Shown here piece after piece: positions 1 through 21,452 of a DNA stretch of 64,000 nt (position 1 is its first letter; each line of letters begins with the position of its first letter). The DNA comes from Bacteroidota bacterium. Lineage in GTDB: Bacteria; Bacteroidota; Ignavibacteria; Tepidaquicellales; Tepidaquicellaceae. The notes under the pieces are model-generated. The model was not told the origin of the DNA. It made no database searches and saw only the letters and a list, made by a program, of their open reading frames with translations. Both the position numbers and the translations under genes were made by a program. The stretch lies in assembly GCA_018266845.1 (NCBI GenBank), contig JAFDZO010000004.1, positions 1 to 64,000 of the forward strand, given 5' to 3'.

Positions 1-440
1 GATGGCATAGCAGATAAACCTAAAACAAAATATCTTAAAGTGTTTTTATCCTTTAAAATTGCAATGGATATAGGTGTAGGAACAGGTAATCCATTATTTT
101 CATTTTTTGTTAAATGAGGGAAATTTATTACAAAAAATTCATAAGACCTCAAGTTAATCATATCAAAAGAAATTAAATTCACATCATCTTTCTTAGGTAA
201 TTGTCCCATCTCTAAACAGCTTTCACTGAAAACAACTATTATTGCATGCTTTCCTCTTTTGTATAAATCTTGTATAAAGTTTTCAGGGTCATGAAATAGT
301 TTCTTGGGAAGAGTAACGCATGTTAATTTATAAAATTGCAAAGCACTATTACTAATCTTATCACTTTTTTCTTGTAATTCATTTAGTTTATCTAGTAAAG
401 TTACTTTCTTCTTTTTTTTAAAAAAATCAAAAAATCCCAT
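1..440 (-). CDS. Hypothetical protein, partial (3' end beyond window)
   Basis: Reading the minus strand from an ATG at 440, the frame stays open for 146 codons to the left edge, so the C-terminus is outside the window. The protein starts MGFFDFFKKKKK, a basic N-terminus, followed by a mixed alpha/beta-looking sequence with no motif I recognise. It lies on the same strand as the HTH gene at 564-1121, with about 120 bases between them, and shares its AT-rich composition. It probably belongs to the same accessory island. No function can be assigned. Confidence 0.6.
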   Translation of the reverse strand, partial: MGFFDFFKKKKKVTLLDKLNELQEKSDKISNSALQFYKLTCVTLPKKLFHDPENFIQDLYKRGKHAIIVVFSESCLEMGQLPKKDDVNLISFDMINLRSYEFFVINFPHLTKNENNGLPVPTPISIAILKDKNTLRYFVLGLSAMP

Positions 441-563
441 AAATTAAATTTTAGTTTTTATAAATTAGTTGAACAAATGCTTCAAAACTAAATATAGATG
501 AAGTTTCAGTAATTATATGTAAACTTTTTAGTATAGAGGTTCTGAAACGATAAAATCTAATGT

Positions 564-1121
564 CTACTTTCCTTTTGTTTGTAAATTGCTGATGGAAAAA
601 ATATACTTATCAGCTATTTTACCGATTTCAGATTTTGACTTTATCTTATTTGTCTTTAAAAAAATATCTACATCTTCCTTCATAAAAAAAACTCTTTTTC
701 CGCCAGGCTTTGAATATGCAATAAGATTTCTGTGAGTCATCTTATAAATGTAAGATTTTGACACTCCTAAATATTTAGACAGGGTTTCTATATTGAAGAT
801 AGTGTTTTCATTTTTATCAGTTTCGTTTAAGTGAGAGTCCATCTCAACATTGTTTTGTTTAGAAGTATTTGAGGCAAAACTTACTTTGTAATTTTTTGAT
901 TTTTTAAGCGCCTCTAAACGGTTCAACTCTAAATCAAGTAAATCCGGAATTGAATTTAATTCAGACCTAATCTCAGCATTAAATTCCTGCTCCCGTAAAT
1001 TTTGAAACATTCTTAATGAAACAATAAATTCTTTCCTAAACTGAAAATAGAAACTAATTCTATCATCAATTTTTTCAATATTATTTACTAACTCTGATAA
1101 TTTGTGAAATAATTTTAGCAT
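564..1121 (-). CDS. Helix-turn-helix (excisionase-type) DNA-binding protein
   Basis: This 185-residue protein has two parts. The N-terminal 90 residues are charged and helical, with no family I recognise. Residues about 107-158 are a HTH_17/MerR-like excisionase domain: a stretch reading TLSKYLGVSKSYIYKM, then a wing with a PGGKRVFF motif and a helix ending DIFLKTN. Such domains occur in Xis-type directionality factors and small regulators of Bacteroidota mobile elements. The gene lies in the island bounded on the right by the integrase and tRNA-Phe, which suggests a role in excision or local regulation. That role is inferred; the HTH fold is read directly. Confidence 0.7.
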   Translation of the reverse strand: MLKLFHKLSELVNNIEKIDDRISFYFQFRKEFIVSLRMFQNLREQEFNAEIRSELNSIPDLLDLELNRLEALKKSKNYKVSFASNTSKQNNVEMDSHLNETDKNENTIFNIETLSKYLGVSKSYIYKMTHRNLIAYSKPGGKRVFFMKEDVDIFLKTNKIKSKSEIGKIADKYIFSISNLQTKGK

Positions 1122-1510
1122 GATTTTAATTTAAGAATTATTTATAAAAATGGATTTTGGTAAGTCTTAATATTGAATTAAGTTAGGAGCAATCTCCTTT
1201 TAGGAATTGTCATTATTTCTTTGATTTCTTGTACAATTTTTTGTAAACTATTTTTATATACCTAAAGCATTACATTTGTAAAAACTGACATATATTGCGA
1301 AAAAAATTTTCTTTATATTTCTATTGGTTTGGCTTTTGTGTAAAGAATTGGTATTAAGTCTGATGAAATTTTAGGAGAGTACATTCTAAATTAATTTTAT
1401 TGTTTATAAGACAACATTATCTTACAACAATATTATACCTGATAAAACCCATTTTATGTTAAGGATAGATAAAATAAAGCGACTATAAATTACTGTCTTA
1501 CTAGTGTTAA
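1122..1510. other. AT-rich intergenic stretch with one copy of a dispersed repeat
   Basis: No credible gene is visible here. Bases 1347-1382 resemble 9334-9368: both contain TATTAAGTCT and, about 20 bases later, GAGAGTAC, followed further on by AATATTATACC. The rest is AT-rich with no clear hairpin terminator or promoter. Confidence 0.4.
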
Positions 1511-2566
1511 TTAAGCCATGGCTTCTTTTTCTAATTCAATAATTTCTTTTAATCGCAACGATATATTTCTCCAATTTGAATTAAGGTTAATTGTCCTGAT
1601 TTGTATTTTATGTTTATTGTATTTGAAATTTAAATTATAGTCAGTTTCAATTGTTGGATAAAGCAAAATACCCGTTGCATTTTGTGTTTTTAAATTTGTG
1701 TTTTGTTGGTTCAATAGATAGCTGAATAGCTGATATAAATTGGCAGATTTTATCCGTTCCTTATCATAATTTATTGTCATTGTCTCACGATAAAATTTTG
1801 CATCAATAATTATTTTTTCTTCGTCATTTTCTAATGTTATATCTGTTTTCATTTGAGGTAAAAATTGAAAACTATCAATGTCGGCGTTATCAAATTGCCA
1901 CTTAATAGTTTCCTTTTTTACTGTCTTGTATTTCTGTTGTTCGATTTTATAGAAGTTTCTAATAAACGATTCAAACAATTGATTCATTTTTTTATCATCC
2001 CTTGTGAAGTCCGAAAATTTATATTTTCCTTGTTCTTCGGATGGCAAGGTACTTTCATAAATAATTTGACAAACATTCATTACAAATCCATAGAAACGGT
2101 TGTTTCTATTCAGTTTTACTTGCTTAAAAAGTGAATTAGTAATTTCAATTTGCTCAATGTCTGAGAACATTCTTTGTAAACTAACCAATTCATTTTTTAG
2201 CTGCTTGTCAAGCCCTTTGGTTCTTGTAAGTCTATAAATGGTTGAAACTAAAATACGGTTCGAAATTATATTGGCGGAAAAATCGTCAAATGTGCAAATT
2301 GTTCTTTGCTTAAAAAGTAAATTGCTTTTCAATGTCTGACTAATTTGAATTTTACCTTTTACGCCTGCTAGTTCTTCAGTGTGGTCTATATAATTTTTAT
2401 CAATGCCTCTTTTCAAAAGCATTTTTGAAGCATTAATTAAAATCTTTGCAAAAAGGTCAAGAAGTTCCGTCTTATCGTCTATCGAAACATTTACACGTTC
2501 TTTCTCATCTAGCTTATTCCAAGCATAGCAAAGTAAGTAGTAAATATTTTCAATAGGTATTTGCAT
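1511..2566 (-). CDS. mcrC: McrC-family restriction endonuclease subunit
   Basis: The 351-residue protein opens with MQIPIENIYYLLCYAWNKL, typical of the McrC/LlaJI-type subunit. A PD-(D/E)XK nuclease core is visible around residues 238-258: an Asp in KTDITLEN, then IIIDAKFY. McrC is the DNA-cutting partner of the AAA+ GTPase McrB in modification-dependent restriction. The start lies 3 bases after the mcrB-like stop, so the two genes form one operon and are probably translated together. Length and motif order fit an intact enzyme. The target modification cannot be read from sequence. Confidence 0.88.
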   Translation of the reverse strand: MQIPIENIYYLLCYAWNKLDEKERVNVSIDDKTELLDLFAKILINASKMLLKRGIDKNYIDHTEELAGVKGKIQISQTLKSNLLFKQRTICTFDDFSANIISNRILVSTIYRLTRTKGLDKQLKNELVSLQRMFSDIEQIEITNSLFKQVKLNRNNRFYGFVMNVCQIIYESTLPSEEQGKYKFSDFTRDDKKMNQLFESFIRNFYKIEQQKYKTVKKETIKWQFDNADIDSFQFLPQMKTDITLENDEEKIIIDAKFYRETMTINYDKERIKSANLYQLFSYLLNQQNTNLKTQNATGILLYPTIETDYNLNFKYNKHKIQIRTINLNSNWRNISLRLKEIIELEKEAMA

Positions 2567-2569
2567 TAC

Positions 2570-5191
2570 TTATCTTGATAGTTGTTTTAAAACTTCTGAA
2601 ACTATTGTTGAATCATCGAACCATATTTCTTCAAGCAGAGGTTTCAATTCAAAACTTAAAATTTCATTCCACCATTTATTTTCATCTACATTCGTTGTAA
2701 AGGTGCAGAAATAACTGTGTCCAATTTGAAATCCTTCACCAAGATTAATATCCTCTTTTATTTTGCTGTTCACTTTTGTAACCGCCGAACAAATATGTTC
2801 AACCATTCCAGCAGTTAAACCTTTTGAAGCCAGGAATGAGCGGAAATTATTACCATAATCAGGTTGAAGCGTAATAAAAGCAAATCGTCTTCTTAAAGCA
2901 TAATCAACAATAGCTAATGAACGGTCTGCCGTGTTCATTGTTCCAATGATGTATAAATTTGATGGAACGTAAAAGCGGTCTTCTTCGTCTTCTGCGTAAG
3001 TTAGTTTTAGTGCAAATTTTTCTTCTCTTTTATCGGCTTCAATTAGCATCATCAATTCTCCGAATATTTTACTTAGATTCCCTCTGTTTATTTCATCAAT
3101 AATAAAAAAGAAAGGTCTGTCGGGATGTGCCAATGCTCTTTGACAGAATGAATAGAAAATTCCGTCCCTTAAATCAAAACCTCCTTTTTGTGTCGGTCTT
3201 AAACCTTGAATAAAATCTTCGTAGCTGTATGATTGGTGAAACTGCACCATTTCAATGTTTGCATCTTTTACTTCTTGCATTATTTCATAAGCCAATTTTC
3301 TGGCGATAAAAGTCTTTCCAACTCCCGGAGGACCCTGTAAAATAATATTCTTCTTTCTTTTTAATAAAGCAACGGTTTGTAAAAACTCTACTTCACTTAT
3401 AAAAGGCTTGTCGCTGTCGTTAGTAAACTTGTATTTTTTTATGTTACTGCTTTGAAGTAGTTTTTCGGTAATGATATTTTTGTTATCAATTATCTCACGA
3501 ATGATGTCGTATTCTTCTTCTGTGAGTTTGAATAAACTTCCTTGATTATTAATGAACACTTCGCAATGCTGCAATGCTGCATTATTTTTCAGGTCGTTCC
3601 AATGAACAGGAATTTCCAACTTCTCAACAAGTTCAAATTCTATTTCTTCTCCGTTGGCTGTGTTGTGAATACCTTTTGTTACCTCATAAATTGCTTTAAT
3701 TTGTTTGGTTGGTGTGCTTTCGTAACCAATAATTAAATCGCCTTCTTTAGCTGCTTCAAAGTACTTATATATTCTTCTTTTGTTTCCTTTTTCGTTGTGT
3801 GTTGTATAGGTTTGTCTTTGTCCTTCGGTGTGATTGCTAATACTCCAAATCTTTGGATTAGCATTTAGCCACCAAAAATTCAATGGTTCAGTTTCGTCAT
3901 TGGATTCGTCTAATTCCATTTCTGGTTCAGAAACGATAATATTAGAACCTAGTTTCTCTGTTGTGAATTTCAAATTATTTGCAGCAAAAATTGAAGCTAA
4001 TTCTGGATAAAGTCTTACATACTCATTCAATATAAACCCATATACATTAGTCGGGCTAAATGTATCGGGGCGGAAAAGGTTTTTGTAACTCTTTAAAGTG
4101 TTTGATTTGTATTGATAAACTTTATCTGTTATCCATTTTACTTTTCGTCTGTGATTAAAGTTGTCCCAAATGCCGTCAAAAAAGTAGCTGCCTTCAATTA
4201 TTCCAATTCCCAAGCAGGTATTTACTCCTTTAGTTGCAAAAACTACATCACCAATATTGGCTGTTTTAAAAAGCCAAAGATTCAAAGTTTTATTTGATTT
4301 GTAATCGTCTTTAAGTCCAATTTCTTTATTCATTTCTACTCGTGATTCGAACTTGTTTAAATCATCGAAATTGAAATCTATTGCAATTATATTTTCGTTA
4401 TGAAACCTTTCCCATTCAGATGCCTGACTACCTGGAGCAAACTTGAAATAATTGCGACTTTCCTTATTTAATTTTGTTATTTCAGGCTTTAGTTTTTGTA
4501 ATAAATTATAGGCATCAGCATAAGTAGCGATAGGTTTTAAATTATTTGGTTTGGGATCTTTTACTGACCAACCTGCAATCTGACCCGCCTCAGGTGAAGC
4601 TCCAAAGCGAACAAAAAATTGATAACTGTCTTTGTGAGATTCCTTGGTTATTGGATATAAGGCTATCCAACAGAAATCACTACCAAAATTAGTTGCTCCT
4701 TGAAAGTCAACTTTATGAAAAATATAATCTTTTAATTCTAATTTGCTTAATAAATCTTTTGCTATTTGTTCAAGATAGTTTAATACCGTTTCTCTTATTG
4801 TTCCTCTGTAAAAGTAACTATGAAAAATGCTCCATGGGTTTTGCCAATTGGCGAATAAGTCTCTCTTAAATAATTCATATTCTTGAATTTGTTTTAAGAA
4901 GTCTTCTTTATAATGATTGAAATAGTCAACGGTTTTATTTCTTATATTATCCTTTATTTCATTTACCAGTGCTTCGCTTGCTGTTTCACCTTGCAAAATT
5001 CTACGAGCAATTTCAGCACGTAATAAATTAACTGGTTTGAAATCACGTTCAGGGTCGCCATATTCTTTATAAATTTCTTCAACAATGTTTTTAGGTAAAC
5101 TATTAATTGCCGAATATAAGCTTATTGGTTTTACTGTGTATGCATGATATTGATTGGCTAAGTCTATTAAATATTTAAATTGTGTTTGCAT
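2570..5191 (-). CDS. mcrB: McrB-type AAA+ GTPase with DUF3578 and EVE-like N-terminal domains
   Basis: This 873-residue protein is the motor and specificity subunit of a McrBC-type system. The C-terminal AAA+ domain has a Walker A GPPGVGKT near residue 619, a Walker B FFFIIDEINRG near 692, and the McrB signature GTMNTADRS near 750, followed by an arginine-finger-like LRRRF. The N-terminal part resembles the DUF3578 (MrcB N) region. It is followed by two EVE/PUA-like segments: about 265-360, and a better one at about 435-560 beginning NFWWLNANPKIW. EVE folds bind modified bases, so this part probably reads modified cytosine or a related mark. It is followed after 3 bases by the McrC gene. Confidence 0.88.
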   Translation of the reverse strand: MQTQFKYLIDLANQYHAYTVKPISLYSAINSLPKNIVEEIYKEYGDPERDFKPVNLLRAEIARRILQGETASEALVNEIKDNIRNKTVDYFNHYKEDFLKQIQEYELFKRDLFANWQNPWSIFHSYFYRGTIRETVLNYLEQIAKDLLSKLELKDYIFHKVDFQGATNFGSDFCWIALYPITKESHKDSYQFFVRFGASPEAGQIAGWSVKDPKPNNLKPIATYADAYNLLQKLKPEITKLNKESRNYFKFAPGSQASEWERFHNENIIAIDFNFDDLNKFESRVEMNKEIGLKDDYKSNKTLNLWLFKTANIGDVVFATKGVNTCLGIGIIEGSYFFDGIWDNFNHRRKVKWITDKVYQYKSNTLKSYKNLFRPDTFSPTNVYGFILNEYVRLYPELASIFAANNLKFTTEKLGSNIIVSEPEMELDESNDETEPLNFWWLNANPKIWSISNHTEGQRQTYTTHNEKGNKRRIYKYFEAAKEGDLIIGYESTPTKQIKAIYEVTKGIHNTANGEEIEFELVEKLEIPVHWNDLKNNAALQHCEVFINNQGSLFKLTEEEYDIIREIIDNKNIITEKLLQSSNIKKYKFTNDSDKPFISEVEFLQTVALLKRKKNIILQGPPGVGKTFIARKLAYEIMQEVKDANIEMVQFHQSYSYEDFIQGLRPTQKGGFDLRDGIFYSFCQRALAHPDRPFFFIIDEINRGNLSKIFGELMMLIEADKREEKFALKLTYAEDEEDRFYVPSNLYIIGTMNTADRSLAIVDYALRRRFAFITLQPDYGNNFRSFLASKGLTAGMVEHICSAVTKVNSKIKEDINLGEGFQIGHSYFCTFTTNVDENKWWNEILSFELKPLLEEIWFDDSTIVSEVLKQLSR

Positions 5192-5483
5192 ATTGAGAAT
5201 TTGGTTTCTATTTTTCTTACTACTTTTCTTTTGTTGAGTTATTTGGCAGTACTAATTAATTGCCTAGATAATTCTATAATGAGATTTAAAATTGATCCAC
5301 CTCTATAAATTGTTTATACAATAAAATTTCCTAATAATAACAATATTATTTAGAATTTACTCGTTTACTTAATTATTACCTTCAACAATATTGAAGAGCT
5401 AATTTAATGTAATCGGTTTATGTTAAAAATCCTGCCAAAGGCTAATTAAAATTTTGTTAACTGAGAAAAGTATTAACCGAAGA
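5192..5483. other. Intergenic, nothing recognised
   Basis: AT-rich DNA between the 5' end of the McrB gene and the 3' end of the lipase-like gene. I see no gene, strong hairpin or repeat. The McrBC promoter must lie here because this is the region immediately upstream of mcrB on the minus strand. Confidence 0.3.
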
Positions 5484-8400
5484 TTATTTTAATAAAATCA
5501 TTTTCTTTACACTCTCAAATTTTTCTGTTTCTAATCTATAAAAATATATACCACTAGAGAGATTTAAACCACTAAAATCAACAAAATAATATCCAGATAA
5601 TTTCACTTCTTTATTAATCAGGATCATAATTTCTCTGCCTAATATATCATATACTATTAAAGTAACTTTTGAATCAATTGGAAGTGAATAATAAATCTTG
5701 GTGTTTGGATTAAAGGGATTTGGATAATTTTGGCTTAATTCAAATTTTATTGGTATTCCAATCTCAACTTCATTTTGTAAACTGTAATATTTAAAATTTC
5801 CATTGTAGTCTATTTGTTTTAATCTATAATTATATTTTCCGGAAGAAAGATTTCTGTCCGTAAAAGAAAAATCTTTTTTCTCATTACTATTTCCACTACC
5901 CTGTACAAATCCTACTTTGTTCCAATTGTTTTCACTTGTTAATTTTCTTTCAATGTCAAATCCAGAATTATTTTGTTCTGAAGAAGTTGCCCATTTAAGT
6001 TCAATATTATTTTTATCAATCAGTGATAAAAAACTAGTTAGTTGAACAGGGAGAACCTCATTATTCAGAGTAAATATTTCATTTTGTGATAAGACACGGT
6101 TATAAAATCTTATATCATCTATTTTTCCATTAAATGGGGCAAGTAAAAAATCAATACTATGAGAACCTATAACTAATATCGATGATGCTGGTAAATTATA
6201 AGGTGTAAGATTATTTTGAGAAGAAACAAGTGAACCATTAACATATAATTTCAAAGAATTGAGTGACCTAACTATTACAAAATGATACCATGTATTCTGA
6301 GTGAAATTACTTAATGGATAGTTAATTACACCATTATACCAAGAGCCAGTATAATCCTCCCATTCTAAAGCATTTGTTGTACTTTCGATATCAAAGGCAT
6401 ATCCTGCCCAACCATTATTGTTTACAGTTAAAATTTGTTCACGTGTTCCATCTAATACATTGAACTGTATCCATGTCGAGACGGAAAGTTCTGGACTATA
6501 AAGATTACTATTATAAGGAACTACAATATAATTGTTAATACCATTAAAACTATAAGCACTGTTTGGATTTTCAAAACGATCAGGAACACTTGAACAACCG
6601 TAAACTGTTCCATTATTGTTATTACCACTAGCATCATTTGCATTTCCATTAAATGGAAAATAAGCAAGAAGACCCGCATTAATATTTGATGTATAAATAG
6701 TAAAAACTGAAGACGATGTTGAATTTACTTCCTGATTAGAAGCATCACTAATTCGAATTTTACATGTTATAGAATTTATGTAAGGTACGGTCCATTGAAA
6801 ATTACCTAATGAAGCAGAATAATTATCAGATAAAGATGTCCAGTTATATCCATTGTTCGTAGAAAGTTCGATCTTTAGATTTGATACACCATACCCATTC
6901 CAGGTTATATTTTGCACAGAGCCAGCCTCAAAATTTTCATTCCCATTAGGTGCATTCAAACTTAAAGATTTATCGGGAGAATATAACAATCGTATTTCGT
7001 TATCTGAAAGTGTCCTGTTGTAAATACGAACATCATCAATGACACCTTGTAGTCTCGTTGACCAATATAATTGTTCCCTATTCCAATAATGTCTTCCAAT
7101 CGCGGCTCTCGGTTCACCTATTAAAACACTTTGATTTTTTTCACCAATGAAATTTCCATCAATGTAAGCTTTCAAAACTCCATTGCTATATGTCATAGTA
7201 TATAAAATAAAATGGGGAGAATAATTACCAGGAAATGGAACTCTAAAAGGAAAAATATTATATTCATCACTACCTACACAAAAATTAATTTCTTGGCTGT
7301 TGTTATCAGGATTATATAAATGGGAAATTCCGGCATAACCTAATGAATGATTTCCAAAAAAAATATATGAATCACCATGATAATGCGCCATACCTTCCTC
7401 CTTTACCCAAAGTGAAATTGTAAAATTTGAACATGAATTTAAATTTGTAGCTAATGATGCTGGTAATATAACACACTTTCCATTACCATACACAAAATCA
7501 GTCCCATATATTTTAACTCCATTACCAATTACGCCGTTTTCAAATGATGGTGAATTTTCTAGTGTACCATTATATCCATTTCCTGAATAATCACTAGCAT
7601 CATTATCCAAAGGATAGTAAGCAAGAAGCCCATTGTTTAATATTTGAGGGGTAAAAATTGTATTCAATCTATAACTATTAAAGTTCAGGTTTTCATCTCC
7701 TTGTCCTCTGACTCGAATAAAATAATCACCTGGATTTACCTGAAAATTAATAATTTCGGTTGTGTTGAGAATATTTTTTGAAACTAGAACTGAATTGTTT
7801 GCTAACAATGCAATTCCGGTTAATCCTGCATTTGTTCCACTAATTGTTACATTTAAGTTTCCGTTCTGAGGAACAGTGACTTTATAAAAATCTATGTCTA
7901 AAAGACTCCCAAATGGTTGAGTTGTGATAAAACCGCTGTAGGAAGTATTGAACTTTATAGGATAAGCAAAATTCACACTATCGGGTTCATCCAATCCTCT
8001 AATTATCGATTGGCTATCTTCGGTTTCCCGAAGATGATTTTTATTTGTAAGAATAGTATCCGCAATTCCAACAGGTGAAGGTGTTCCGCTTACATTTAAC
8101 CATTGTCTATTTGCATCTACAACTCCATCCCAGTCAAAGGAAAAAGGTCCAATTTCAAATTTTGAAACAATCCAAGTGTACAGAACATTTTGAGGTAGCG
8201 GCATTACGAGACTATAATTAGTGCCATAAGATAGCCCGTCAATAAAATCTACATTATTACCATTACAATTCACATCATTATTATAGAAATTTGACGGAAT
8301 ATTAGACTCTAGGTTACTGAACAGATATGGAGCATCAAAACCAGATAAATATGAATATCTTAAATCCCTCACTGCTTCACTATTATTATCAATATTAAAA

Positions 8401-9047
8401 GTTGGGTTAAAAGTAGATGCATTACTACCCAAATGTGGCGTCCCAATTGTTACTACTTTTGCAACTTTATGTCCATCTTCTTCATTTGGGTTCTGCCACC
8501 ATTTATAATTCCCGTTTTCTTTTCTTTGCAGATATTCTCTTATAGCTAATCCTCCCATAGAATGTCCAACTAAAATTACTTTTTCAGCCCCAGTAACTCT
8601 TAAAACTGAATCAATACAAATTTTCAAGGCATAACCTTGCTTAAAAATTGCAGATTGGTTGCTTGTAGATTCATTTACTCCTGGCGTACCCGAATTATAA
8701 AGATATATTCTAGGATCGGATGGATTCTGATTCCAAAAATTATTAAAATTTATTGAATACAAACTGGATTTTGTTATCTTGTTTACGATTGTTCCATCTT
8801 GGTCGATTAACGGAATTATTACATCTTGCAAATAATCTGTAACATTACTTTTGGCATTAAGTACAAAATGTAATTTATGGTTATTACTCGATTGCCACGT
8901 TTGACTTAATTGAGTGATGGTGTTATCCCAAGTCAGATCAGAAGAATTCAACCCATGCACAAAAATAATTGGATAAGGAGAATTTGATGGTTGTGAAAAA
9001 GCAATTTGCGTAGATACTAAAATTAAAAGAAGAAAAGTTTTTTTCAT
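5484..9047 (-). CDS. Secreted lipase/esterase-like protein with two LamG domains and T9SS sorting domain
   Basis: A modular exported protein of 1187 residues. Residues 1-18 are a signal peptide. Residues about 25-330 are an alpha/beta-hydrolase of the triacylglycerol-lipase/PGAP1-like kind: an oxyanion-type FVHGLNS near 29 and the nucleophile elbow VGHSMGG near 160. A linker of the pre-peptidase C-terminal type follows. Then come a LamG/concanavalin-like domain at about 475-690, an Ig-like segment at about 695-790, a second LamG domain at about 795-1005, and a type IX sorting domain at about 1105-1187 containing LSQNYPNPFNP and ending KKMILLK. The LamG modules suggest carbohydrate or surface binding. 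The real substrate is unknown. It lies inside the mobile-looking region. Confidence 0.85.
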   Translation of the reverse strand: MKKTFLLLILVSTQIAFSQPSNSPYPIIFVHGLNSSDLTWDNTITQLSQTWQSSNNHKLHFVLNAKSNVTDYLQDVIIPLIDQDGTIVNKITKSSLYSINFNNFWNQNPSDPRIYLYNSGTPGVNESTSNQSAIFKQGYALKICIDSVLRVTGAEKVILVGHSMGGLAIREYLQRKENGNYKWWQNPNEEDGHKVAKVVTIGTPHLGSNASTFNPTFNIDNNSEAVRDLRYSYLSGFDAPYLFSNLESNIPSNFYNNDVNCNGNNVDFIDGLSYGTNYSLVMPLPQNVLYTWIVSKFEIGPFSFDWDGVVDANRQWLNVSGTPSPVGIADTILTNKNHLRETEDSQSIIRGLDEPDSVNFAYPIKFNTSYSGFITTQPFGSLLDIDFYKVTVPQNGNLNVTISGTNAGLTGIALLANNSVLVSKNILNTTEIINFQVNPGDYFIRVRGQGDENLNFNSYRLNTIFTPQILNNGLLAYYPLDNDASDYSGNGYNGTLENSPSFENGVIGNGVKIYGTDFVYGNGKCVILPASLATNLNSCSNFTISLWVKEEGMAHYHGDSYIFFGNHSLGYAGISHLYNPDNNSQEINFCVGSDEYNIFPFRVPFPGNYSPHFILYTMTYSNGVLKAYIDGNFIGEKNQSVLIGEPRAAIGRHYWNREQLYWSTRLQGVIDDVRIYNRTLSDNEIRLLYSPDKSLSLNAPNGNENFEAGSVQNITWNGYGVSNLKIELSTNNGYNWTSLSDNYSASLGNFQWTVPYINSITCKIRISDASNQEVNSTSSSVFTIYTSNINAGLLAYFPFNGNANDASGNNNNGTVYGCSSVPDRFENPNSAYSFNGINNYIVVPYNSNLYSPELSVSTWIQFNVLDGTREQILTVNNNGWAGYAFDIESTTNALEWEDYTGSWYNGVINYPLSNFTQNTWYHFVIVRSLNSLKLYVNGSLVSSQNNLTPYNLPASSILVIGSHSIDFLLAPFNGKIDDIRFYNRVLSQNEIFTLNNEVLPVQLTSFLSLIDKNNIELKWATSSEQNNSGFDIERKLTSENNWNKVGFVQGSGNSNEKKDFSFTDRNLSSGKYNYRLKQIDYNGNFKYYSLQNEVEIGIPIKFELSQNYPNPFNPNTKIYYSLPIDSKVTLIVYDILGREIMILINKEVKLSGYYFVDFSGLNLSSGIYFYRLETEKFESVKKMILLK

Positions 9048-9496
9048 AATGGAAGGGTTAGATAACTTATTTTAGAGTAAAACAATAATTTTTTAAAGTC
9101 ATATAATTAGTATATTGATATATCAAGATTAAGTTTGAAAAATCGCTTTAGTACTTATAATCTATAATACATTGACGGTATTCGCAAATCCTCCACCACT
9201 AAATAAGCATATCCTTCGGGTGCATTGATTGAGGAATATCCTGCAAGAACTTTAACCTATAGATACACTCAAAGAATTGAGTCAACGATTTTCGTCATTG
9301 GTTTTTTGTTACTCTTCGCTATAACGTAAATAATTGATATTAAGTCTTTTCAAATTCTAAGAGAGTACGCTAAGGTTCATTTCTGAAGAATTGTTTTTGA
9401 AATGTATATTTTAGATTGAATAATATTATACCAAAGTTATATATATGTTTTCAATTTTTTCAATTGTATATTTCTCATTAATCAAATCAATTTATT
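9048..9496. other. Intergenic region with integrase remnant and dispersed repeat
   Basis: About 450 bases holding the integrase fragment at 9180-9272 and, at 9334-9368, the second copy of the short repeat also found at 1347-1382. The DUF2779 gene's promoter should lie in the AT-rich end near 9400-9490. No other gene is visible. Confidence 0.5.
9180..9272 (-). pseudogene. Fragment of a tyrosine integrase C-terminus
   Basis: Read on the minus strand, this stretch translates to something like VKVLAGYSSINAPEGYAYL followed by VVEDLR. It matches the C-terminal active-site segment of the intact integrase at 11651-12673, which reads VKVLAGHSSIKTTEGYAHL then IVEDLR. The histidine of the GHSS motif is Tyr here, and the frame is not continuous with any longer gene. 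It is therefore a decayed remnant of a related integrase, probably left by an earlier integration. Confidence 0.7.
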
Positions 9497-11437
9497 TTGG
9501 CAAATCCCCAATACCTTACAAAATCTTTATTTGTAAAAGCTGTTGAATGCCCAACAAAACTTTATTACTTAAATAAAGACGCTTATTCCAATCAGAAAAA
9601 TGACGATGCATTTCTTGAAGCATTAGCAAAGGGTGGGTTTCAAGTTGGAACATTAGCAAGATGCTATTATCCAGAAGGGGTATTGATAAAAGAAAGAGAT
9701 TACAAATCTTCAATCGCTAAAACTGAAGAGTTATTAAAAAGAGATAGAGTCGTAATTTTTGAAGCAGCTTTTTTATACAAAGATTGTTTTGTCAGAGTTG
9801 ATATTTTGATTAAAGAGGGTAAAAAGTTAAAGTTAGTAGAAGTGAAATCTAAATCATATGATAGTAACGAGGATGAATTCATGGGTAAGAGAGGTGGTTT
9901 AATTTCAAAATGGAAAAAATACATCTATGATATTTCATTTCAAAAATATGTGATTTCAAATGCTCATGATGAATTTGAAGTAGAAGCACATTTATACTTA
10001 GCTGACAAAAATAAAAAAACTTCCATTGATGGATTAAATCAGAAATTTGAAATAAAAAGAACAGATGGTTCATTTGAAGTTGTTATCAATGGCGATGTTA
10101 CGCCAACTTCATTAGGAAATTCTATTCTTACAATGGTTAACGTAGATAAAGAGATTGATTTAGTGTGGAAATGTGCCGATAACGAAGATTTACTAAATTT
10201 AAGCTTTGAAGAGTTTATAGACAGAGTATCACTTAATTATAATAGGGACGGAAAAATTAACCCGACAATCAAAAATAGATGCAAAAAATGTGAGTTCCAA
10301 ACTAATGAAATAGAAGAGAATGCGGTGAAAAAAAGTGGTTTCAAGGAATGTTGGGATGCAATATTTAGAAAACACAATACTGAATCTCTTGAAACAATAG
10401 TGTATAACATTTGGGATTTTAGATCAACAGATAAAGAGTTTTCCAAAGGTAATTATTTTATGTCTCAACTAGATGAATCTATTTTTACTGATAAGACGGC
10501 TTGTGGATACTTATCCCGTAAAGCTAGACAAAAGCTTCAGTATGAATCTGTAATTAATAAAACAAACGAAGAGTACTTTGATAAAGAAGGACTTAAAAAA
10601 GTAATGAAGACATGGAAATACCCTTTACATTTTATAGATTTTGAAACTTCAACAATTGCTATACCATTTAACAAAAATAGAAGACCCTATGAGTTAATTG
10701 CATTTCAGTTCTCACGTCACATAGTTCATGAAGATGGAAGAATTGAACATATAGGAGAATACATTAATACTGAACCTGGAAAGTTTCCTAACTTCGATTT
10801 TTTAATTGAATTAAAAAATCAACTGGATGGTGATTCCGGGACAATTTTTAGATATGCCTTACATGAGAAGACAGTTTTAAACTCTATTAAAAAAGAATTG
10901 AATGAAACAAGTGTTGATGAATTACCAAATAAGGAAGAACTAATAGAATGGATAGATAAAATTACAGATGGAGATAGAGCAATGGTAGATATGCTAGAAC
11001 TTGTTAAGAATTACTACTATTCACCTCGAATGAAAGGTTCAAATTCCTTGAAGGTTGTCCTTCCAACTATTCTAAATGAATCAAAATATCTTCAAGATAA
11101 ATATGATAAACCTATCTATGGAGGATCAGGTATACCCAGTAAAAATTTCAAAGAACCCATGATTTGGATTCAAAAAAATGGGTCTAAAATTCAAGACCCA
11201 TATAAATTACTTTCTCCTCTTGAATATGATTTTTCAGAAGAAGAGATAAATTTAATGTTTGATGGTGATGTTATTGCTGAAGGTGGTGCTGCAATGTTTG
11301 CCTATAACCAAATGCAGTTTTCTAATATGTCAGAGTCTGAAAGAAGCATGTTAACAGAGTCTCTATTGAAATATTGTGAATTGGATACCTTCGCAATGGT
11401 TCTTTTATGGGAGTTTTTTAATTATAAATGTTCTTGA
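9497..11437 (+). CDS. DUF2779 protein: Cas4-like nuclease fused to DEDD-type exonuclease
   Basis: A 646-residue DUF2779 protein beginning at TTG (9497). The N-terminal half looks like a Cas4/RecB-type nuclease: ECPTKLYY near residue 17, an acidic VRVDILI near 99, VEVKSKS near 114, then CKKCEF near 261 and a further Cys in KECW. Together these give the four cysteines of a possible Fe-S cluster. The C-terminal half begins HFIDFET near 378, an RNase H-like DEDD exonuclease motif I, and has a late acidic motif YCELDTFAMV near 630. The family often occurs in defence or mobile regions. It lies alone between the integrase remnant and the intact integrase. Enzymatic roles are inferred. Confidence 0.8.
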   Translation: MANPQYLTKSLFVKAVECPTKLYYLNKDAYSNQKNDDAFLEALAKGGFQVGTLARCYYPEGVLIKERDYKSSIAKTEELLKRDRVVIFEAAFLYKDCFVRVDILIKEGKKLKLVEVKSKSYDSNEDEFMGKRGGLISKWKKYIYDISFQKYVISNAHDEFEVEAHLYLADKNKKTSIDGLNQKFEIKRTDGSFEVVINGDVTPTSLGNSILTMVNVDKEIDLVWKCADNEDLLNLSFEEFIDRVSLNYNRDGKINPTIKNRCKKCEFQTNEIEENAVKKSGFKECWDAIFRKHNTESLETIVYNIWDFRSTDKEFSKGNYFMSQLDESIFTDKTACGYLSRKARQKLQYESVINKTNEEYFDKEGLKKVMKTWKYPLHFIDFETSTIAIPFNKNRRPYELIAFQFSRHIVHEDGRIEHIGEYINTEPGKFPNFDFLIELKNQLDGDSGTIFRYALHEKTVLNSIKKELNETSVDELPNKEELIEWIDKITDGDRAMVDMLELVKNYYYSPRMKGSNSLKVVLPTILNESKYLQDKYDKPIYGGSGIPSKNFKEPMIWIQKNGSKIQDPYKLLSPLEYDFSEEEINLMFDGDVIAEGGAAMFAYNQMQFSNMSESERSMLTESLLKYCELDTFAMVLLWEFFNYKCS

Positions 11438-11650
11438 TTTTTTTTACTATTTATCATTTTTTATTATTACTCAGCATCATTTTTTTTTCTTCTCTTTTTT
11501 TCTTTATATCTTATATTATATATTCCATTATAAAGTACTTATCTACATTAGCAAGCTTTACATATTTAAAGCATCCTTCAGATCTGATATTTGAATGTAA
11601 CAGTATCGTTGAGTTACGGTCAAGGAAGAGTTTTAATCAAACCTTTTTAT
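11438..11650. other. Very AT-rich spacer
   Basis: A T-rich stretch between the DUF2779 gene and the 3' end of the integrase. Long T runs near 11440-11510 follow the DUF2779 stop but no GC-rich hairpin precedes them. A short hydrophobic reading frame is a by-product of the base composition. Confidence 0.3.
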
Positions 11651-12673
11651 TCATAAAACATTAACTGCATTTCTTAAATCCTCAACTATTAAATGAGCAT
11701 ATCCTTCGGTCGTTTTAATTGAGGAATGTCCAGCTAGGACTTTAACCTTATAGATACTTATCCCTTTTCTCAATAGCTGTGTTATAAAGGTATGTCTTAA
11801 ATTATGAAAATGTAAATGGTCTGGTAAACCTGCTTTTATAACACATGATTTAAATTTTGTTGTTATAAAGCTTTTGTCAAAAGGTCTGTCAGTATAACTT
11901 TGAAATAAATATTTTTCACCGATATAGGTTCCTTTGTTTTCATTTTTCATGGCTAACATCACAGGATAAAGCTTTTCCGAAATCGGAATAGAACGAATTT
12001 TAGTAGTCTTAGTTCTGTGGTTCTCTTTATTTAAAACTTTAATGATTTTATCTTCTAATAGAATATCATTCCATTGAAGATTTAATATTTCCGCTAATCT
12101 CATCCCGGTATACAAACCTATCATTACAAAATTTTTCAGTAATGGAATATCAATATTCTTAATCAACAATAGAATTTCATCTTCGGTAAAAACCATTTTT
12201 TCTTTTTCAACAGTCTTAATCTGCTTTATATCCGTGAATGGATTATTGTAGGAGTGTTTGAACTTTCTTGCAAGATTATAACTGGACTTTAGATTGCGTA
12301 TTTCTATATTGAGTGTAACAGCACCAACAGAATTCAGCCGTACTTTCTTAAAGTACTCTATATCTTCTGCTGTTACGTCAAACGCAATTTTATTTCCGAC
12401 TATATTTATAAACTCTTTAAATGATCTTCTATATAGTTGTAGAGTTGATTTAGTGAAATTATTTTGAACGTAATCCAAAACGAATTCACTTAAAGATTTG
12501 ACGGTAAAGAACTTGCTTTTGTTTTGTTCGGTGAGAGTTGTTTCAAATTCGACTAACTTCTTTTGGGCTTCTTTATAATTTTTTGTTTTAGCAGAAACCT
12601 TTTTTGTTTGTCCCGATAGTTCATCTTTATAGAAGATGTAATAAACTCCGGATTTTCTTTTTGATAGAAACAT
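11651..12673 (-). CDS. Tyrosine recombinase/phage-type integrase
   Basis: The catalytic pattern of a tyrosine integrase is complete: Arg in YTGMRLAEI, the HNLRHTF box, the His of GHSSIKTTEGY and the tyrosine nucleophile in that same EGYAHL segment. The N-terminal part is an Arm/core-binding SAM-like domain. I choose the ATG at 12673 (340 residues, starting MFLSKRKSG) because GGAG lies 6 bases upstream. A longer TTG start at 12754 would lie inside the terminator hairpin of the tRNA gene. The gene runs away from the 3' end of tRNA-Phe, the classical arrangement for an element integrated in a tRNA. Confidence 0.9.
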   Translation of the reverse strand: MFLSKRKSGVYYIFYKDELSGQTKKVSAKTKNYKEAQKKLVEFETTLTEQNKSKFFTVKSLSEFVLDYVQNNFTKSTLQLYRRSFKEFINIVGNKIAFDVTAEDIEYFKKVRLNSVGAVTLNIEIRNLKSSYNLARKFKHSYNNPFTDIKQIKTVEKEKMVFTEDEILLLIKNIDIPLLKNFVMIGLYTGMRLAEILNLQWNDILLEDKIIKVLNKENHRTKTTKIRSIPISEKLYPVMLAMKNENKGTYIGEKYLFQSYTDRPFDKSFITTKFKSCVIKAGLPDHLHFHNLRHTFITQLLRKGISIYKVKVLAGHSSIKTTEGYAHLIVEDLRNAVNVL

Positions 12674-12740
12674 AATTACTCCATTTCTACCGGATACATA
12701 AAAGTTAGAAAATATATGCCCACTTGTATGCCCACTAAAT

Positions 12741-12773
12741 AAAAAACCACTCAAGAGTAACTCTTAAGTGGTT
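12741..12773 (-). terminator. Rho-independent terminator of tRNA-Phe
   Basis: A 13-base stem with one mismatch (arm 12745-12757, loop TAA, arm 12761-12773) is followed on the minus strand by TTTTTT. It lies 10 bases beyond the tRNA 3' end, so it ends the tRNA transcript and separates it from the integrase. Confidence 0.8.
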
Positions 12774-12783
12774 GTTATTACAG

Positions 12784-12856
12784 TGGACAGGGCCGGAATT
12801 GAACCGGCGACACACGGCTTTTCAGGCCGTTGCTCTACCAACTGAGCTACCTGTCC
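12784..12856 (-). tRNA. tRNA-Phe (GAA)
   Basis: The minus strand folds into a 73-base cloverleaf. The acceptor stem GGACAGG pairs perfectly with CCTGTCC, followed by discriminator A. The D loop contains AGCTCAGTTGGTAGAGC, the anticodon loop reads CTGAAAA giving anticodon GAA, and the T arm contains GGTTCAATTCC. CCA is not encoded. The 3' end faces the integrase, so this gene is the probable integration target of the island to its left. Confidence 0.95.
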
Positions 12857-13115
12857 TTACAAAAAATGTTTCTAAACTTTTTGTTTCAGACATTATCGAA
12901 AAAAATTAGCTCGATTGAACTGCTGTCTCTTAGAACGAATTAGTAAAATACCAATTTTTGGAAAGTTAATCAATTACAAAAATGGGAATTTTTTAAAAAT
13001 TGCAATTTATTTTTGTCTGACAGGTATTTTTTCATTTTATTATATCTCTTATAATGGTATTTTCATTTTTCCACACAATTAATCAGAAATATTTCAAAAA
13101 GAAATCATCAAAATT

Positions 13116-15165: not shown

Positions 15166-16212
15166 TTAACAAATCCGCGGAAGCTGCTCGCCAGAAATCA
15201 TATCTAAAATTCTTTTTGTTCCTATTCTGCTAATAAGAGTTACGCCGTCATTATTTTTTTTACCAACGCAGCCTATTGCGTTTCCAAAACCATATTTGTT
15301 AAGAATTGTTAGAGCTTTTTCTTTATGTTTTTCCGGGATGAAAGAAATAAATCTTCCTTCGTTAGCTACATACATTGCATCGAATCCAAGAAGCTCGCAC
15401 GCTGCATTCACATCTTCCCTTACCGGAACATCTTTTTCATCAATGATGAATTCATATCCGCTTGCAGATGAAAGTTCAACCAGCGCGCTTACAAGTCCGC
15501 CGCGGGTTAAATCACGCATGCAATGAATTTCAACTCCTTCATTTAGTAAATCAGATACGACATGATTTAACGGCGCGCAGTCGCTTTCAATTTCAGTTTC
15601 AAATTCTAATCCTTCACGCTTAGCCATAATTGCAATTCCGTGTCTGCCAATATCGCCGTTAATAAAAATTAAATCTCCCTCATTTATCTTAGAAGGAGCT
15701 ATTGTAAAATTATGTTCGATGATTCCTATACCGCTAGTGTTAATAAAAATTCCGTCGCCTTTTCCTTTATCAACAACCTTTGTATCACCTGTAACAATTT
15801 TTACCCCTGCCCCATCGCAGTTTTTTTTAAGTGAAGTTACAATCTGCCATAGGGTTTCCATTGGCAAGCCTTCTTCGATTATTAATCCCAGACTTATATA
15901 CAACGGCTTTGCGCCGGACATTGATAAATCATTTACCGTTCCATTTACTGCAAGACTCGCAATATCTCCCCCGGGAAAAAATAAGGGCTTTACTACGTAT
16001 GAATCAGTTGTGAACGCAATTTTGTTTTTATCCAGATTCAATAAAACAGAATCACTTCTTTGCTCAAGGAAAGAATTTCCAAACGCAGCGAAAAACATTT
16101 TCTCGATTAATTGCTGCATCAGTCTTCCGCCTCCGCCGTGCGCCATTAGAACATGCGGATAATCTGAAATAGGTATGGGGCACAATAACGCAAAATCAAT
16201 TTCACTTTTCAT
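15166..16212 (-). CDS. hypE: Hydrogenase maturation protein HypE
   Basis: HypE (348 residues, AIRS/PurM-like) dehydrates the carbamoyl group received from HypF into the cyanide ligand of the [NiFe] centre. The protein contains [14 protein letters not shown] near 24, the ATP-binding TGDTKVVD near 140, [11 protein letters not shown] near 232, and the required C-terminal PRIC tail whose final cysteine carries the thiocyanate. Its start overlaps the hypD stop by 4 bases. It is the last gene of the long minus-strand cluster. Confidence 0.96.
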
Positions 16213-17306
16213 TTTGCTTTCATTTTGTTCCTATATTTGTAATAAGCAGCGCATGCTCCTTCAGTGGAAACCATCGTTGCTCCTAATGGATGTTCAGGTG
16301 TGCAGGTTTTGCCAAATGCTTCGCAGTCAAAAGGTTTTTTTACACCTTGTAATATCAGCCCGCTTATACATTCAGAAGGTTCTTCAACTTTAAAATCCAC
16401 AAGGTTAAATTTTCTTTCCGCATCATACTCAACGTAATCGTCGTTTAATCCTAAACCGCTTTGATAGATTTCTCCAATGCCGCGCCACTTCCTGTTTCTG
16501 ATTTTGAAAACTTCCTTAATAATATTTTGCGCATGAACATTGCCCGCTTCATCAACAACACGCGAATATTGATTTTCAACTTCCGCTCTTCCTTCTTCCA
16601 GCTGCTTTACTGCCATGTAAACTCCGCATAGAATATCAACAGGCTCAAATCCCGTAACAACAATTGGCACATTATATTTTTTTGCAATTGGATAATATTC
16701 TTCATAACCCATAATAGTGCAAACATGCCCCGCAGCGAGAAAAGCATTAATTTTATTTTGTGGAGAAGAAAGTATTGCTTCAATTGCCGGCGGGACAAGA
16801 ACGTGTGAGATAAGTATAGAAAAATTTTTTATACCTTGCTGCTTTGCCTGATATACTGACATTGCATTGGCGGGAGCAGTTGTCTCGAAACCCACAGCGA
16901 AAAAAATTATTTCCTTATGCGGATTTTCTTTCGCAATTTTCAACGCATCCATAGGTGAATACAAAATTCTTACATCACCTCCTTCGGCTTTTACAGAAAG
17001 CAAATCTTTTTTTGAGCCGGGCACTCTCAGCATGTCTCCGAAGGAACAAAAAATAACATCTTTTCGTGAAGCCAGCTCTATGGCTTTATCAATTTGCTCT
17101 AAGGGAGTAACACAAACGGGACAGCCGGGACCGTGAACAAGAGTTACTTCTTTTGGAAGCAGCTCATCAATTCCGAATTTTACAATTGAATGTGTCTGCC
17201 CGCCGCAGACCTCCATAATGTTCCACGGTTTTGTAACAATTTTTTTAATCTGCTTTCCGTACTTCAATACAGCTTCGGCATCCCTATATTCATCTAAATA
17301 TTTCAT
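16209..17306 (-). CDS. hypD: Hydrogenase maturation protein HypD
   Basis: HypD (365 residues) is the Fe-S scaffold on which the Fe(CN)2CO unit is built with HypC. Diagnostic blocks are [11 protein letters not shown] near 32, [11 protein letters not shown] near 58, the GFETTAPA block near 147, and the Fe-S cluster cysteines in EPSECISG and [12 protein letters not shown] near the C-terminus. It overlaps hypC and hypE by 4 bases each, which indicates coupled translation. Confidence 0.96.
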
Positions 17307-17560
17307 TTCTCTTCTTCGTTTAATTCATCAAGCTCATTCATTTGATTTAGATATTCAAAAACTTTTCCTGCTTCAGCTTCATCGAGTTTTTTTAAAGCAA
17401 AACCTACATGCACAATTACATAATCATTTATATTTGCTTCAGGCGTGTAAGATAAATTGACTTCCTTGATGATTCCGCCGAAGCTTACTTTTCCTGTTCG
17501 GGTAAAAGGACTTTCAGAATCATTTATGCTCACTATTTTTCCCGGAACCGCTAAGCACAT
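17303..17560 (-). CDS. hypC: Hydrogenase maturation chaperone HypC
   Basis: An 85-residue HypC/HupF protein. It starts with the invariant MCLAVPGKI, whose Cys2 binds the Fe(CN)2CO unit and docks on HypD and then on the hydrogenase large subunit. The body contains the usual small beta-barrel sequence ending in an acidic tail. It is separated from hypF by a single base and overlaps hypD by 4 bases. Confidence 0.96.
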
Positions 17561-17561
17561 T

Positions 17562-19811
17562 TTATTTTCTGTTTTTGTTTAAAAAATTATAATACATCAT
17601 TTGACCAAGTGATATGCCTCCATCGTTAATTGGTATTTCACTTTGCCAATAAACTTTGTACCCGTTATTTGTAAGCATATCAATTGATTTCTCCAATAAA
17701 AATTTATTCTGAAAACAACCACCTGAGAGAGCAATTTGCTGCATCCCTGATAAATTACAAACCTTTAGAATTAAATCAACCAGCGCATTATGAAATTTAG
17801 AAGAAATAGTTTCTTTTAAAATGCCATTTTTTAAATCGAAGAAAACTTCTTTAATCACATTTCTCCACTCGATGTCAAAATTGTTTTTTTGCGATTTTAT
17901 TAGTTCAAACTCGTAGCGTTCCTCTGAGTTTACATCAACAATATTTTCAAGCTGCATGGCAGCCTGTCCCTCGTAAGAAGAATATTGTGTCAGATTAATT
18001 ATTGATGATATTCCATCGAACAATCTTCCCATGCTTGATGTAAGAGGAGAATTTATTTTTTTTTCGATTAAATTCAAAATTGTATCAGCGTCATGCTTGC
18101 TGTAATAATTTTTTACCTCTTCTTTTGATTGAACTGAAGATAAAAGTGAAACTCCAGTTCTCCAGATTTCATTTATTGCTTTTTCTCCTCCGGGAAGTGG
18201 GAAATATTTCAAGTGAGCAAATCTCTCAAACTTATCTTCATTCACTTTTAAAAATTCTCCGCCCCATATATTGCCGTCAGTACCAAAGCCCGTTCCGTCC
18301 CAGCAGATGCCAAGAACCTCTCCCTCAATTTTATTTTCAGCTATGCATGAAAGCATGTGAGCATAGTGGTGCTGCACCTGAAAGTGATTTAAGCCAAGCT
18401 TCTCTGCAAATTTTGTTGAAACATAATCCGGGTGTAAATCGGAGATAACAGTTCCCGGTTTTACAGCGTAAAGGTTTTGAAAATCGTGTATGATTTTTTT
18501 AAATGCGCCAAATGCTTCTTTTGTATCTAAATCTCCTATGTGCTGGCTAATGAAAATATTTTTCCCTGAAGAAATTGCCACTGTATTTTTCAAGTGCCCT
18601 CCGGCTGCAATCGCGGGAGGAACTTCGCTATCTGTTATTACGGGGTAAGGGGCAAATCCTCTTGCGCGGCGAATCATAAACGGCTTTCCCTTTACAATTC
18701 TTGCTACGGAATCATCTACCTGTCTCACAATTTTTCTGTTGTGCACTAAAAAATAATCTGCAATGCCGCCGAGTTTTTCAAATGCCTCATCGTTATCAAT
18801 ACAAATCGGCTCATCTGAAATATTTCCGCTCGTCGCTGCAATTGGAGTATCTAAGACTTCCAATAAAATTTTATGCAGGGGAGTATAGGGCAGCATTACG
18901 CCATAGTAATTATTTTCAGGGGCAATGCTTTTAGCAATAAAGTTGTTTTCTTTTTTTCTTAATAGAACAATCGGCGCATGTGCGGAGCATAGTAATTTTT
19001 CTTCTTCACTGTTAACTTCGCAAAAATCTTTTACGTTTTCCAATGAAGGAAACATCATTGCTAAAGGTTTTTCTTCTCTGTGCTTTCTTTCTCTTAGTGT
19101 TTTAATTGCTTTTTCGTTAGAAGCATCTGCTAATAATTGAAATCCCCCTAATCCTTTAACCGCAACAATTTTCCCCTCACGAATAAATTGTGCTGCTTTT
19201 ACTATTGCTTCATGTCTCTCTGAAATAAGATTTTTTTCATTATCATAAAATGTAACCTGCGGCCCGCAATCAGGGCAAGCAATAGGCTCGGCGTGAAATC
19301 TTCTGTCAAAAGGATTTTCGTACTCCGCTTTGCACTTATCGCACATTTCAAATTCACGCATTGTCGTATTTGCTCTATCATAAGGAATAGCCTCAATTAT
19401 AGAAAATCTCGGTCCGCAGTTTGTGCAGTTTGTGAAAGGGTATAAATATCTTCTATCCTCAGGATTGAAAATTTCTTCTTCACAATCTTTGCATGCTGCA
19501 ATATCGGGCAGAATAAGGGCAGTCTTTTTTTGCGAGTTACTGCTTTGCCTGATTTCAAATAACTGAAAATATTTTACCGATGAGTCAATGAAGCTAAAAC
19601 TCGTTATAGATGAGTTAACGGGCTTTTCTTCTCGCAGCTTCAAAAGAAAATCATTTATATTTTTTTCTATTCCTTCAGCTTCGATTGTAACACCTTCTGA
19701 GGAGTTAACTATCCATCCTTTAATATTGAGTTCATTAGCAAGACGATATACGAACGGTCTGAACCCTACTCCCTGAACAGTTCCGTGAATATTTATTCTA
19801 ACGCTTTTCAT
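17562..19811 (-). CDS. hypF: Carbamoyltransferase HypF
   Basis: 749 residues with the complete HypF architecture. The N-terminal acylphosphatase domain has GTVQGVGFRPFVYRL. The zinc-finger region has CKDCEEEI, CTNCGPRF, CDKC and CPDCG motifs (residues about 105-190). Then come a YrdC-like domain beginning near 195 and a C-terminal Kae1-like domain with HHYAH near 469 and GGCFQN near 706. HypF turns carbamoyl phosphate into a carbamoyl-adenylate and passes it to HypE. A 140-base gap with hairpins separates it from hypB upstream, the only sizeable break in the cluster. Confidence 0.96.
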   Translation of the reverse strand: MKSVRINIHGTVQGVGFRPFVYRLANELNIKGWIVNSSEGVTIEAEGIEKNINDFLLKLREEKPVNSSITSFSFIDSSVKYFQLFEIRQSSNSQKKTALILPDIAACKDCEEEIFNPEDRRYLYPFTNCTNCGPRFSIIEAIPYDRANTTMREFEMCDKCKAEYENPFDRRFHAEPIACPDCGPQVTFYDNEKNLISERHEAIVKAAQFIREGKIVAVKGLGGFQLLADASNEKAIKTLRERKHREEKPLAMMFPSLENVKDFCEVNSEEEKLLCSAHAPIVLLRKKENNFIAKSIAPENNYYGVMLPYTPLHKILLEVLDTPIAATSGNISDEPICIDNDEAFEKLGGIADYFLVHNRKIVRQVDDSVARIVKGKPFMIRRARGFAPYPVITDSEVPPAIAAGGHLKNTVAISSGKNIFISQHIGDLDTKEAFGAFKKIIHDFQNLYAVKPGTVISDLHPDYVSTKFAEKLGLNHFQVQHHYAHMLSCIAENKIEGEVLGICWDGTGFGTDGNIWGGEFLKVNEDKFERFAHLKYFPLPGGEKAINEIWRTGVSLLSSVQSKEEVKNYYSKHDADTILNLIEKKINSPLTSSMGRLFDGISSIINLTQYSSYEGQAAMQLENIVDVNSEERYEFELIKSQKNNFDIEWRNVIKEVFFDLKNGILKETISSKFHNALVDLILKVCNLSGMQQIALSGGCFQNKFLLEKSIDMLTNNGYKVYWQSEIPINDGGISLGQMMYYNFLNKNRK

Positions 19812-19952
19812 ACAATCAAAAATAAAAGAAGTGTGATAAAAAATTTAGGCGGGAAATTTTCAAGCCGGATGCAACCGGTGCCTTCCTGAGGGGAAGGCAC
19901 GATTGTGTTTATAGCCGGAATGGCTAGCAACATTAAGGAGAAATGAAACTGA
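19812..19952 (-). other. Hairpin-bearing spacer between hypB and hypF
   Basis: The gap contains a 9-bp stem (19878-19886 with 19892-19900, arm GTGCCTTCC) and a small stem TAGCC (19912-19916) with GGCTA (19922-19926). Neither is followed by a clear T run in the minus direction. The spacer could be an mRNA-processing or stability element, or a remnant of a REP-like repeat. I see no second copy in this window. Confidence 0.45.
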
Positions 19953-20633: not shown

Positions 20634-20639
20634 TTGTTT

Positions 20640-20984: not shown

Positions 20985-20986
20985 TG

Positions 20987-21448: not shown

Positions 21449-21452
21449 TTTT

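Follow-up and report, generated by a model that had tools for sequence, protein, structure and literature searches.

A DUF2779 protein with predicted Cas4/EXO5-like and DEDDy exonuclease domains in a probable tRNA-Phe island: a possible accessory defence nuclease

What role might a protein with two nuclease-like regions play when its gene lies between an integrase and McrBC? This question is raised by an open reading frame in the window, a 64,000-nucleotide stretch of DNA from a Bacteroidota bacterium (assembly GCA_018266845.1, contig JAFDZO010000004.1). A sequence-only reading of this locus had proposed that N-terminal cysteines with an EVK motif and a later FIDFET/YCELDT pair mark two nuclease domains in a single chain, with a function in defence or element maintenance. 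Residues 378-517 of the encoded protein matched DUF2779 (PF11074) in Pfam with an E-value of 4.6e-24 and 85.5 bits, against a gathering cut-off of 23.3, and this was the sole DUF2779 match in the host genome. The position of its TTG start agrees with the starts of homologues, a few residues ahead of YLTKS.

Other searches with the protein gave little. No NCBIfam model matched it, the match in PHROGs was at chance level, and a search of PDB by sequence gave a best E-value of 1.2 with the single sequence and no match with a profile. The sole PADLOC match was a weak one to Cas4 (residues 59-125, E 0.005), and the protein fit no PADLOC model of a named anti-phage system. According to the accessible text of a 2014 survey (PMC3985635), DUF2779 is family F.17 of the RNase H-like superfamily, includes a DUF83 region that resembles PD-(D/E)XK nucleases, and is presumed to have 3'-5' exonuclease activity. 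The window protein belongs to this cluster and shares its DUF83-type plus RNase H-like composition; the accessible text describes neither a function nor neighbours or an island setting for the family. Because the two-nuclease architecture was already published, the fusion itself is known; what is new here is the defence-type linkage and the island context. No biochemical test of any DUF2779 protein was found in the literature searched. Coordinates of all features are collected in Table 1.

Table 1. Features of the DUF2779 protein and of the surrounding island in the window
Feature	Position	Strand	Support
HTH/excisionase-like protein	564..1121	-	TIGR01764 above cut-off
McrC	1511..2566	-	PRK09736 above cut-off; PF10117
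McrB-like AAA+ protein with EVE domain	2570..5191	-	Pfam; under NCBIfam McrB cut-off
Secreted lipase-like protein, 1187 aa, laminin-G domains and Por secretion tail; island cargo	5484..9047	-	Pfam
DUF2779 protein, long form	9497..11437	+	646 aa, TTG start; ORF call and Pfam
N-terminal part, residues 1-372; predicted Cas4/EXO5-like PD-(D/E)XK nuclease domain over about 1-294	9497..10612	+	Model and structural alignment
C18, first putative Fe-S ligand	9548..9550	+	Cys in 95/98 long homologues, remaining 3 gaps
D102 ... E115-V-K117, nuclease active-site motif	9800..9847	+	All three in 97/98 long homologues
C262-x2-C265-x19-C285, other putative Fe-S ligands	10280..10351	+	97, 97 and 98 of 98 long homologues
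C-terminal DEDDy exonuclease domain, residues 374-646	10616..11434	+	Fold and DUF2779 match
Exo I motif D381-F-E383, within FIDFET 379-384	10637..10645	+	Each 98/98
E457, place of Exo II aspartate	10865..10867	+	98/98; Exo II assignment inferred from motif order
D498, invariant acidic residue	10988..10990	+	98/98 long, 24/24 other rows
Exo III motif Y626-x3-D630, within YCELDT 626-631	11372..11386	+	Y 93/98, D 94/98; 4 gaps
Tyrosine integrase	11651..12754	-	PF00589, E 2.2e-33
44-bp att core, tRNA 3' half	12783..12826	+	Exact copy at C10:129890-129933, same genome, same orientation
tRNA-Phe (GAA), intact; probable attachment gene of island	12783..12856	-	tRNA search, Rfam

Two predicted nuclease domains in one chain

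The full-length model, for which 63 sequences were aligned, had a mean pLDDT of 91.5 and a pTM of 0.91. Both nuclease folds were present in it. Residues 2-294 of this model aligned with the Cas4 chain in a complex of Cas4, Cas1 and Cas2 (Z 11.9, rmsd 4.7, 196 residues), and residues 1-372 modelled separately (pLDDT 88.4) again had Cas4 as the best structural alignment (Z 12.1, rmsd 5.0, 198 residues). Cas4 chains filled the first five places of the fold list for this domain, with Z from 12.1 down to 9.9, and human EXO5 (9.7) and AdnAB (9.4) came next; Pfam gave no match for the N-terminal domain. Residues 374-646 aligned best with the exonuclease domain of family B DNA polymerases (Z 13.0, rmsd 2.6, 174 residues). 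Foldseek against PDB returned nothing at E <=0.001 (best values 5.4e-3 and 2.1e-3), and the fold assignment thus depends on structural alignments and motifs.

To assess residue conservation, 98 long homologues were aligned together with 24 other rows, the latter mostly short forms; the long set was grouped by locus, and four of its proteins are truncated or lie at a contig edge (L003, L024, L031 and L093). The D102/E115/K117 set was complete in 97 of the 98 long homologues and in 18 of the 24 other rows, and all four cysteines were present in 94 and 20, respectively. The five acidic residues of the C-terminal domain (D381, E383, E457, D498 and D630) were found together in 94 long homologues, the other four having gaps and no substitution, and in all 24 other rows. 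All 12 predicted iron-ligand and catalytic residues were retained in 90 of the 98. Predicted structure and conservation therefore both bear out the idea of two nuclease domains in one chain, and the family-wide loss of acidic residues that would have counted against it was not seen. The EVK, FIDFET and YCELDT motifs stood as read; regarding the N-terminal cysteines, C18 is the only conserved one near the N-terminus, and the others lie at C262, C265 and C285.

The N-terminal domain resembles Cas4 (7mi4, 8d3l, 4ic1) in its fold over residues 1-294, its D and E-x-K motif, and its arrangement of one N-terminal and three C-terminal cysteines. Cas4 has a conserved active-site His, whereas no column of residues 1-372 had His in at least half of the 98 rows. 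Because this His is missing, the protein was not filed as Cas4; it also differs from Cas4 in being fused to an exonuclease and in having no link to Cas1 or CRISPR. The nuclease domains of human EXO5 (Z 9.7) and AdnAB (Z 9.4) share the PD-(D/E)XK fold and carry an Fe-S cluster; neither enzyme is known to have a DEDD-type nuclease domain in addition. By analogy with Cas4 and EXO5, the N-terminal domain may hold an Fe-S cluster and act on single-stranded DNA ends.

The C-terminal domain has the features of a DEDDy exonuclease: an RNase H-like exonuclease fold, a DxE motif, an acidic residue (Glu) at Exo II and a YxxxD motif. It differs from family B DNA polymerases in that the polymerase part is absent and that Glu replaces Asp at Exo II, as assigned by motif order. 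This domain may remove 3' nucleotides in the way of a proofreading exonuclease, a suggestion made by analogy.

Two further families invite comparison. UvrD-Cas4 fusions likewise join a Cas4-like domain to a second DNA enzyme and occur in defence contexts with WYL regulators; in the accessible text their partner is a helicase, whereas that of DUF2779 is an exonuclease (PMC5704561). TM0106/COG2251 (TIGR03491) is also described, in the part of PMC3985635 available, as DUF83 plus RNase H-like. Membership in this family was rejected: the DUF2779 protein had no NCBIfam match, TIGR03491 had 0 matches in the host genome, and a profile comparison with a single member, a partial ORF in L133, gave no significant match (E 0.1).

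A probable island at tRNA-Phe

The gene does lie between the integrase and McrBC, as had been stated, with the lipase-like gene separating it from the latter. The 3' end of the tRNA-Phe is 28 bp from the start of the integrase ORF. On the island side of the tRNA the G+C content is 0.26-0.33, whereas outside the island most values are 0.36-0.42. The 44 bases at the tRNA end have exactly one further copy in the genome, on contig C10. No complete tRNA was found at that copy; it is adjoined by a run of N, and G+C drops there from about 0.40 to 0.30. C10 ends at 157855, and the window starts at base 1 of its own contig, C41. Since repeat orientation and base composition fit, we infer that the two contigs join in a single island: the C10 arm of about 28 kb, an unsequenced junction and 12.8 kb in the window would probably form one island at least some 41 kb long. 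An integrase beside a tRNA, a direct repeat of the tRNA end and a composition shift are thus all present, and the DUF2779 gene is probably cargo of this tRNA-Phe island.

Pfam matches in the C10 arm identify HsdM and HsdS of a type I system, a protein with a PLD domain, another of the PD-(D/E)XK kind, a methylase resembling M.Eco57I, a histidine-kinase-type ATPase and ThiF; an HsdR-like ORF was recognised by eye. No Pfam match was obtained for L131:12212-13546, L131:17498-18610 or L132:17920-18972, and Rfam found nothing besides the tRNA over positions 1-13000 of the window.

Several other observations were made in these regions. Amid restriction genes at L132:10734-13980 lies a protein in which the histidine-kinase-type ATPase domain occurs twice; the ORF after it resembles a response regulator, as judged by eye. 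At the contig end of the C10 arm (L132:17920-19793), a ThiF protein adjoins a JAB-like protein, the latter recognised by eye only. Positions 15166-24389 of the window appear, from translations only, to hold a hydrogenase maturation and structural cluster (HypE/HypD/HypF-like proteins and NiFe hydrogenase subunits).

Relatives and their genomic neighbours

Among genome contigs, 572 relatives were confirmed, of which the best 80 were kept. DUF2779 was above cut-off in 58 of 395 genomes of the phylum. Two lengths occur there, one near 500 aa (short form) and one near 650 aa (long form), and their profiles align end to end; among the phylum genomes sampled, DUF2779 occurred in 0 of 3 of the same family or order. 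In a tree of 96 sequences, most of them long forms, from which the contig-edge rows L024, L031 and L033 were left out, the 78 with a named phylum represented 17 phyla and showed 20 label changes against a minimum of 16. The family is widespread yet largely clustered by phylum, and rampant transfer between phyla is unsupported by this tree.

Relatives were present in 31 plasmid records, and a DUF2779 gene on an Arcobacter plasmid is listed in the part of the literature available. Carriage by phages was considered and set aside: no relative was found among 50,697 phage records, a single-sequence scan of viral contigs confirmed none, and an alignment scan of viral contigs gave 8, of which at least one (L119) has a BrxL-cluster gene next but one. 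Foldseek against the viral structure library gave 25 matches at E <=0.001. Two giant-virus proteins in BFVD, A0A3G4ZWN9 of Faunusvirus (E 1.1e-11) and A0A5K0U8I2 of Yasminevirus (E 6.2e-10), matched the model over its whole length with a TM of 0.51 by query length. This suggests that giant viruses have the two-domain arrangement too.

No universal partner of DUF2779 was detected across 85 loci, and most loci had no recurrent partner. The commonest neighbour cluster, found at 21 of the 85, is represented by a WYL-WCX regulator; representatives of other clusters are McrB, McrC, BrxL, an Eco57I-type methylase, HipA, DUF2130 and an NT5C-like phosphatase. A total of 136 neighbours from the 85 loci were scanned; these were mechanically called, complete ORFs of 120-1300 aa that lie directly beside DUF2779 and no more than 2.5 kb away. 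WYL was the top Pfam family (10 proteins), NT5C was present in 3 and BrxL in 2, and PADLOC found BrxL as well as BrxHI, the latter in 2.

Proximity was evaluated in 39 genomes with 43 DUF2779 places (2 of them short forms), drawn from the 80 genome-contig loci for longer flanks, with whole-genome family matches as background. Compared with Poisson expectations that ignore relatedness, three families were enriched within 10 kb of DUF2779: WYL (10 of 46 matches, 0.27 expected), NT5C-like nucleotidase (5 of 15, 0.09 expected) and McrBC (2 of 7, 0.04 expected; 3 of 7 within 15 kb). HSDR_N was without clear excess (1 of 48 at 10 kb, 0.28 expected; 3 of 48 at 15 kb), and Cas1 was absent (0 of 10, 0.06 expected). 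There was no excess of TetR, with at least 1 among the matches listed within 10 kb and about 0.86 expected, a value that assumes about 150 rows (estimated by eye) and only TetR on contigs also bearing DUF2779.

All five NT5C-like genes are on the same strand as DUF2779, with gaps of -4, 60, 69, 726 and 1065 bp. Short NT5C-like HAD phosphatase genes were noted beside DUF2779 at L084:9537-9995, L085:9479-9922, L074:12020-12493, L036:8432-8920 and L047:12686-13132, above background. At three loci (L084:11959-12315, L085:11970-12314 and L095:3772-4131), members of a family of 114-119 aa proteins abut the DUF2779 3' end; the one member scanned had no Pfam match. In L067, an HD-domain gene is immediately downstream.

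Possible functions

Taken as a whole, both folds, the retention of residues, an island with restriction cargo, the proximity of WYL, NT5C and McrBC, and the BrxL and BrxHI neighbours suggest a defence role. Our working interpretation, to which we give an even chance, is that the DUF2779 protein is a dual nuclease with an accessory defence function, degrading DNA ends as cargo of a tRNA-Phe-integrated defence island. Of the two roles proposed from the sequence, the cross-genome neighbour statistics suggest defence, and element maintenance is disfavoured. An enzyme serving excision or transfer of an integrated element would be consistent with the integrase and tRNA that adjoin here and with plasmid-borne homologues; however, integrase genes do not recur close to DUF2779 (1 within 10 kb among the matches listed) and neighbours differ widely among loci, which leaves this explanation improbable. 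The nearest solved folds of the N-terminal domain are Cas4 of adaptation complexes, which recalls CRISPR adaptation, where Cas4 paired with a DnaQ-like trimmer would process prespacers. However, Cas1 is missing from the host genome and from 31 of 40 genomes searched, and no CRISPR-like array was present in any DUF2779 locus scanned. With the Cas1 proximity and array searches both negative, this candidate was set aside as close to refuted.

A more serious competitor, though in our view still unlikely, is a DNA repair or recombination nuclease that works as AdnAB/RecB or EXO5 do and is found in islands only because islands gather such genes. EXO5 and AdnAB come after Cas4 in the fold list, and one of the Mycoplasma bovis mutants that showed a growth defect with host cells had its transposon in the DUF2779 gene (PMC7373297, in the text available), a phenotype that points to a housekeeping-like role and counts against defence. 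According to the accessible part of PMC9122589, WYL proteins regulate BREX and CRISPR loci and also DNA-damage responses, so context alone cannot separate defence from repair. What speaks against repair is the patchy occurrence within the phylum, including absence from the three genomes of the same family or order, and the linkage to McrBC and BREX parts. RNases do occur in the DEDD exonuclease clade (PMC3985635, same text), and the C-terminal domain might instead act on RNA 3' ends in RNA processing or degradation; since its top folds are exonuclease domains of DNA polymerases and the N-terminal domain resembles DNA nucleases, we give this option little chance. The defence reading itself has several points against it: the tree, clustered by phylum, has less of the patchiness expected of a defence gene that moves freely, HSDR_N is not clearly in excess, recurrent partners are mostly missing, the N-terminal domain has no conserved His, and Foldseek E-values against PDB are weak.

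Under the defence reading, the N-terminal domain would bind and cut single-stranded DNA ends, as Cas4 and EXO5 do, and the C-terminal domain would strip nucleotides off 3' ends, as proofreading exonucleases do. With Cas4/EXO5-like and proofreading-like domains together, one chain could degrade DNA ends of both polarities. The substrate would probably be foreign DNA already cut by other enzymes, here McrBC and the type I system. A WYL sensor may set expression in a subset of genomes, and in another subset the linked nucleotidase may dephosphorylate the dNMP products. UvrD-Cas4 fusions have been assigned to defence from context, WYL neighbours included, in the part of PMC5704561 available. A more specific and rather doubtful version is that long-form DUF2779 is a single-chain, helicase-free effector, induced through WYL, that degrades foreign DNA from both ends and that in some lineages is coupled to an NT5C-like nucleotidase, blocking the recycling of dNMPs for phage replication.

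If the defence reading is true, a widespread nuclease missing from the PADLOC version used could be assigned. In addition, the nuclease-nucleotidase pairing would tie DNA degradation to nucleotide depletion.
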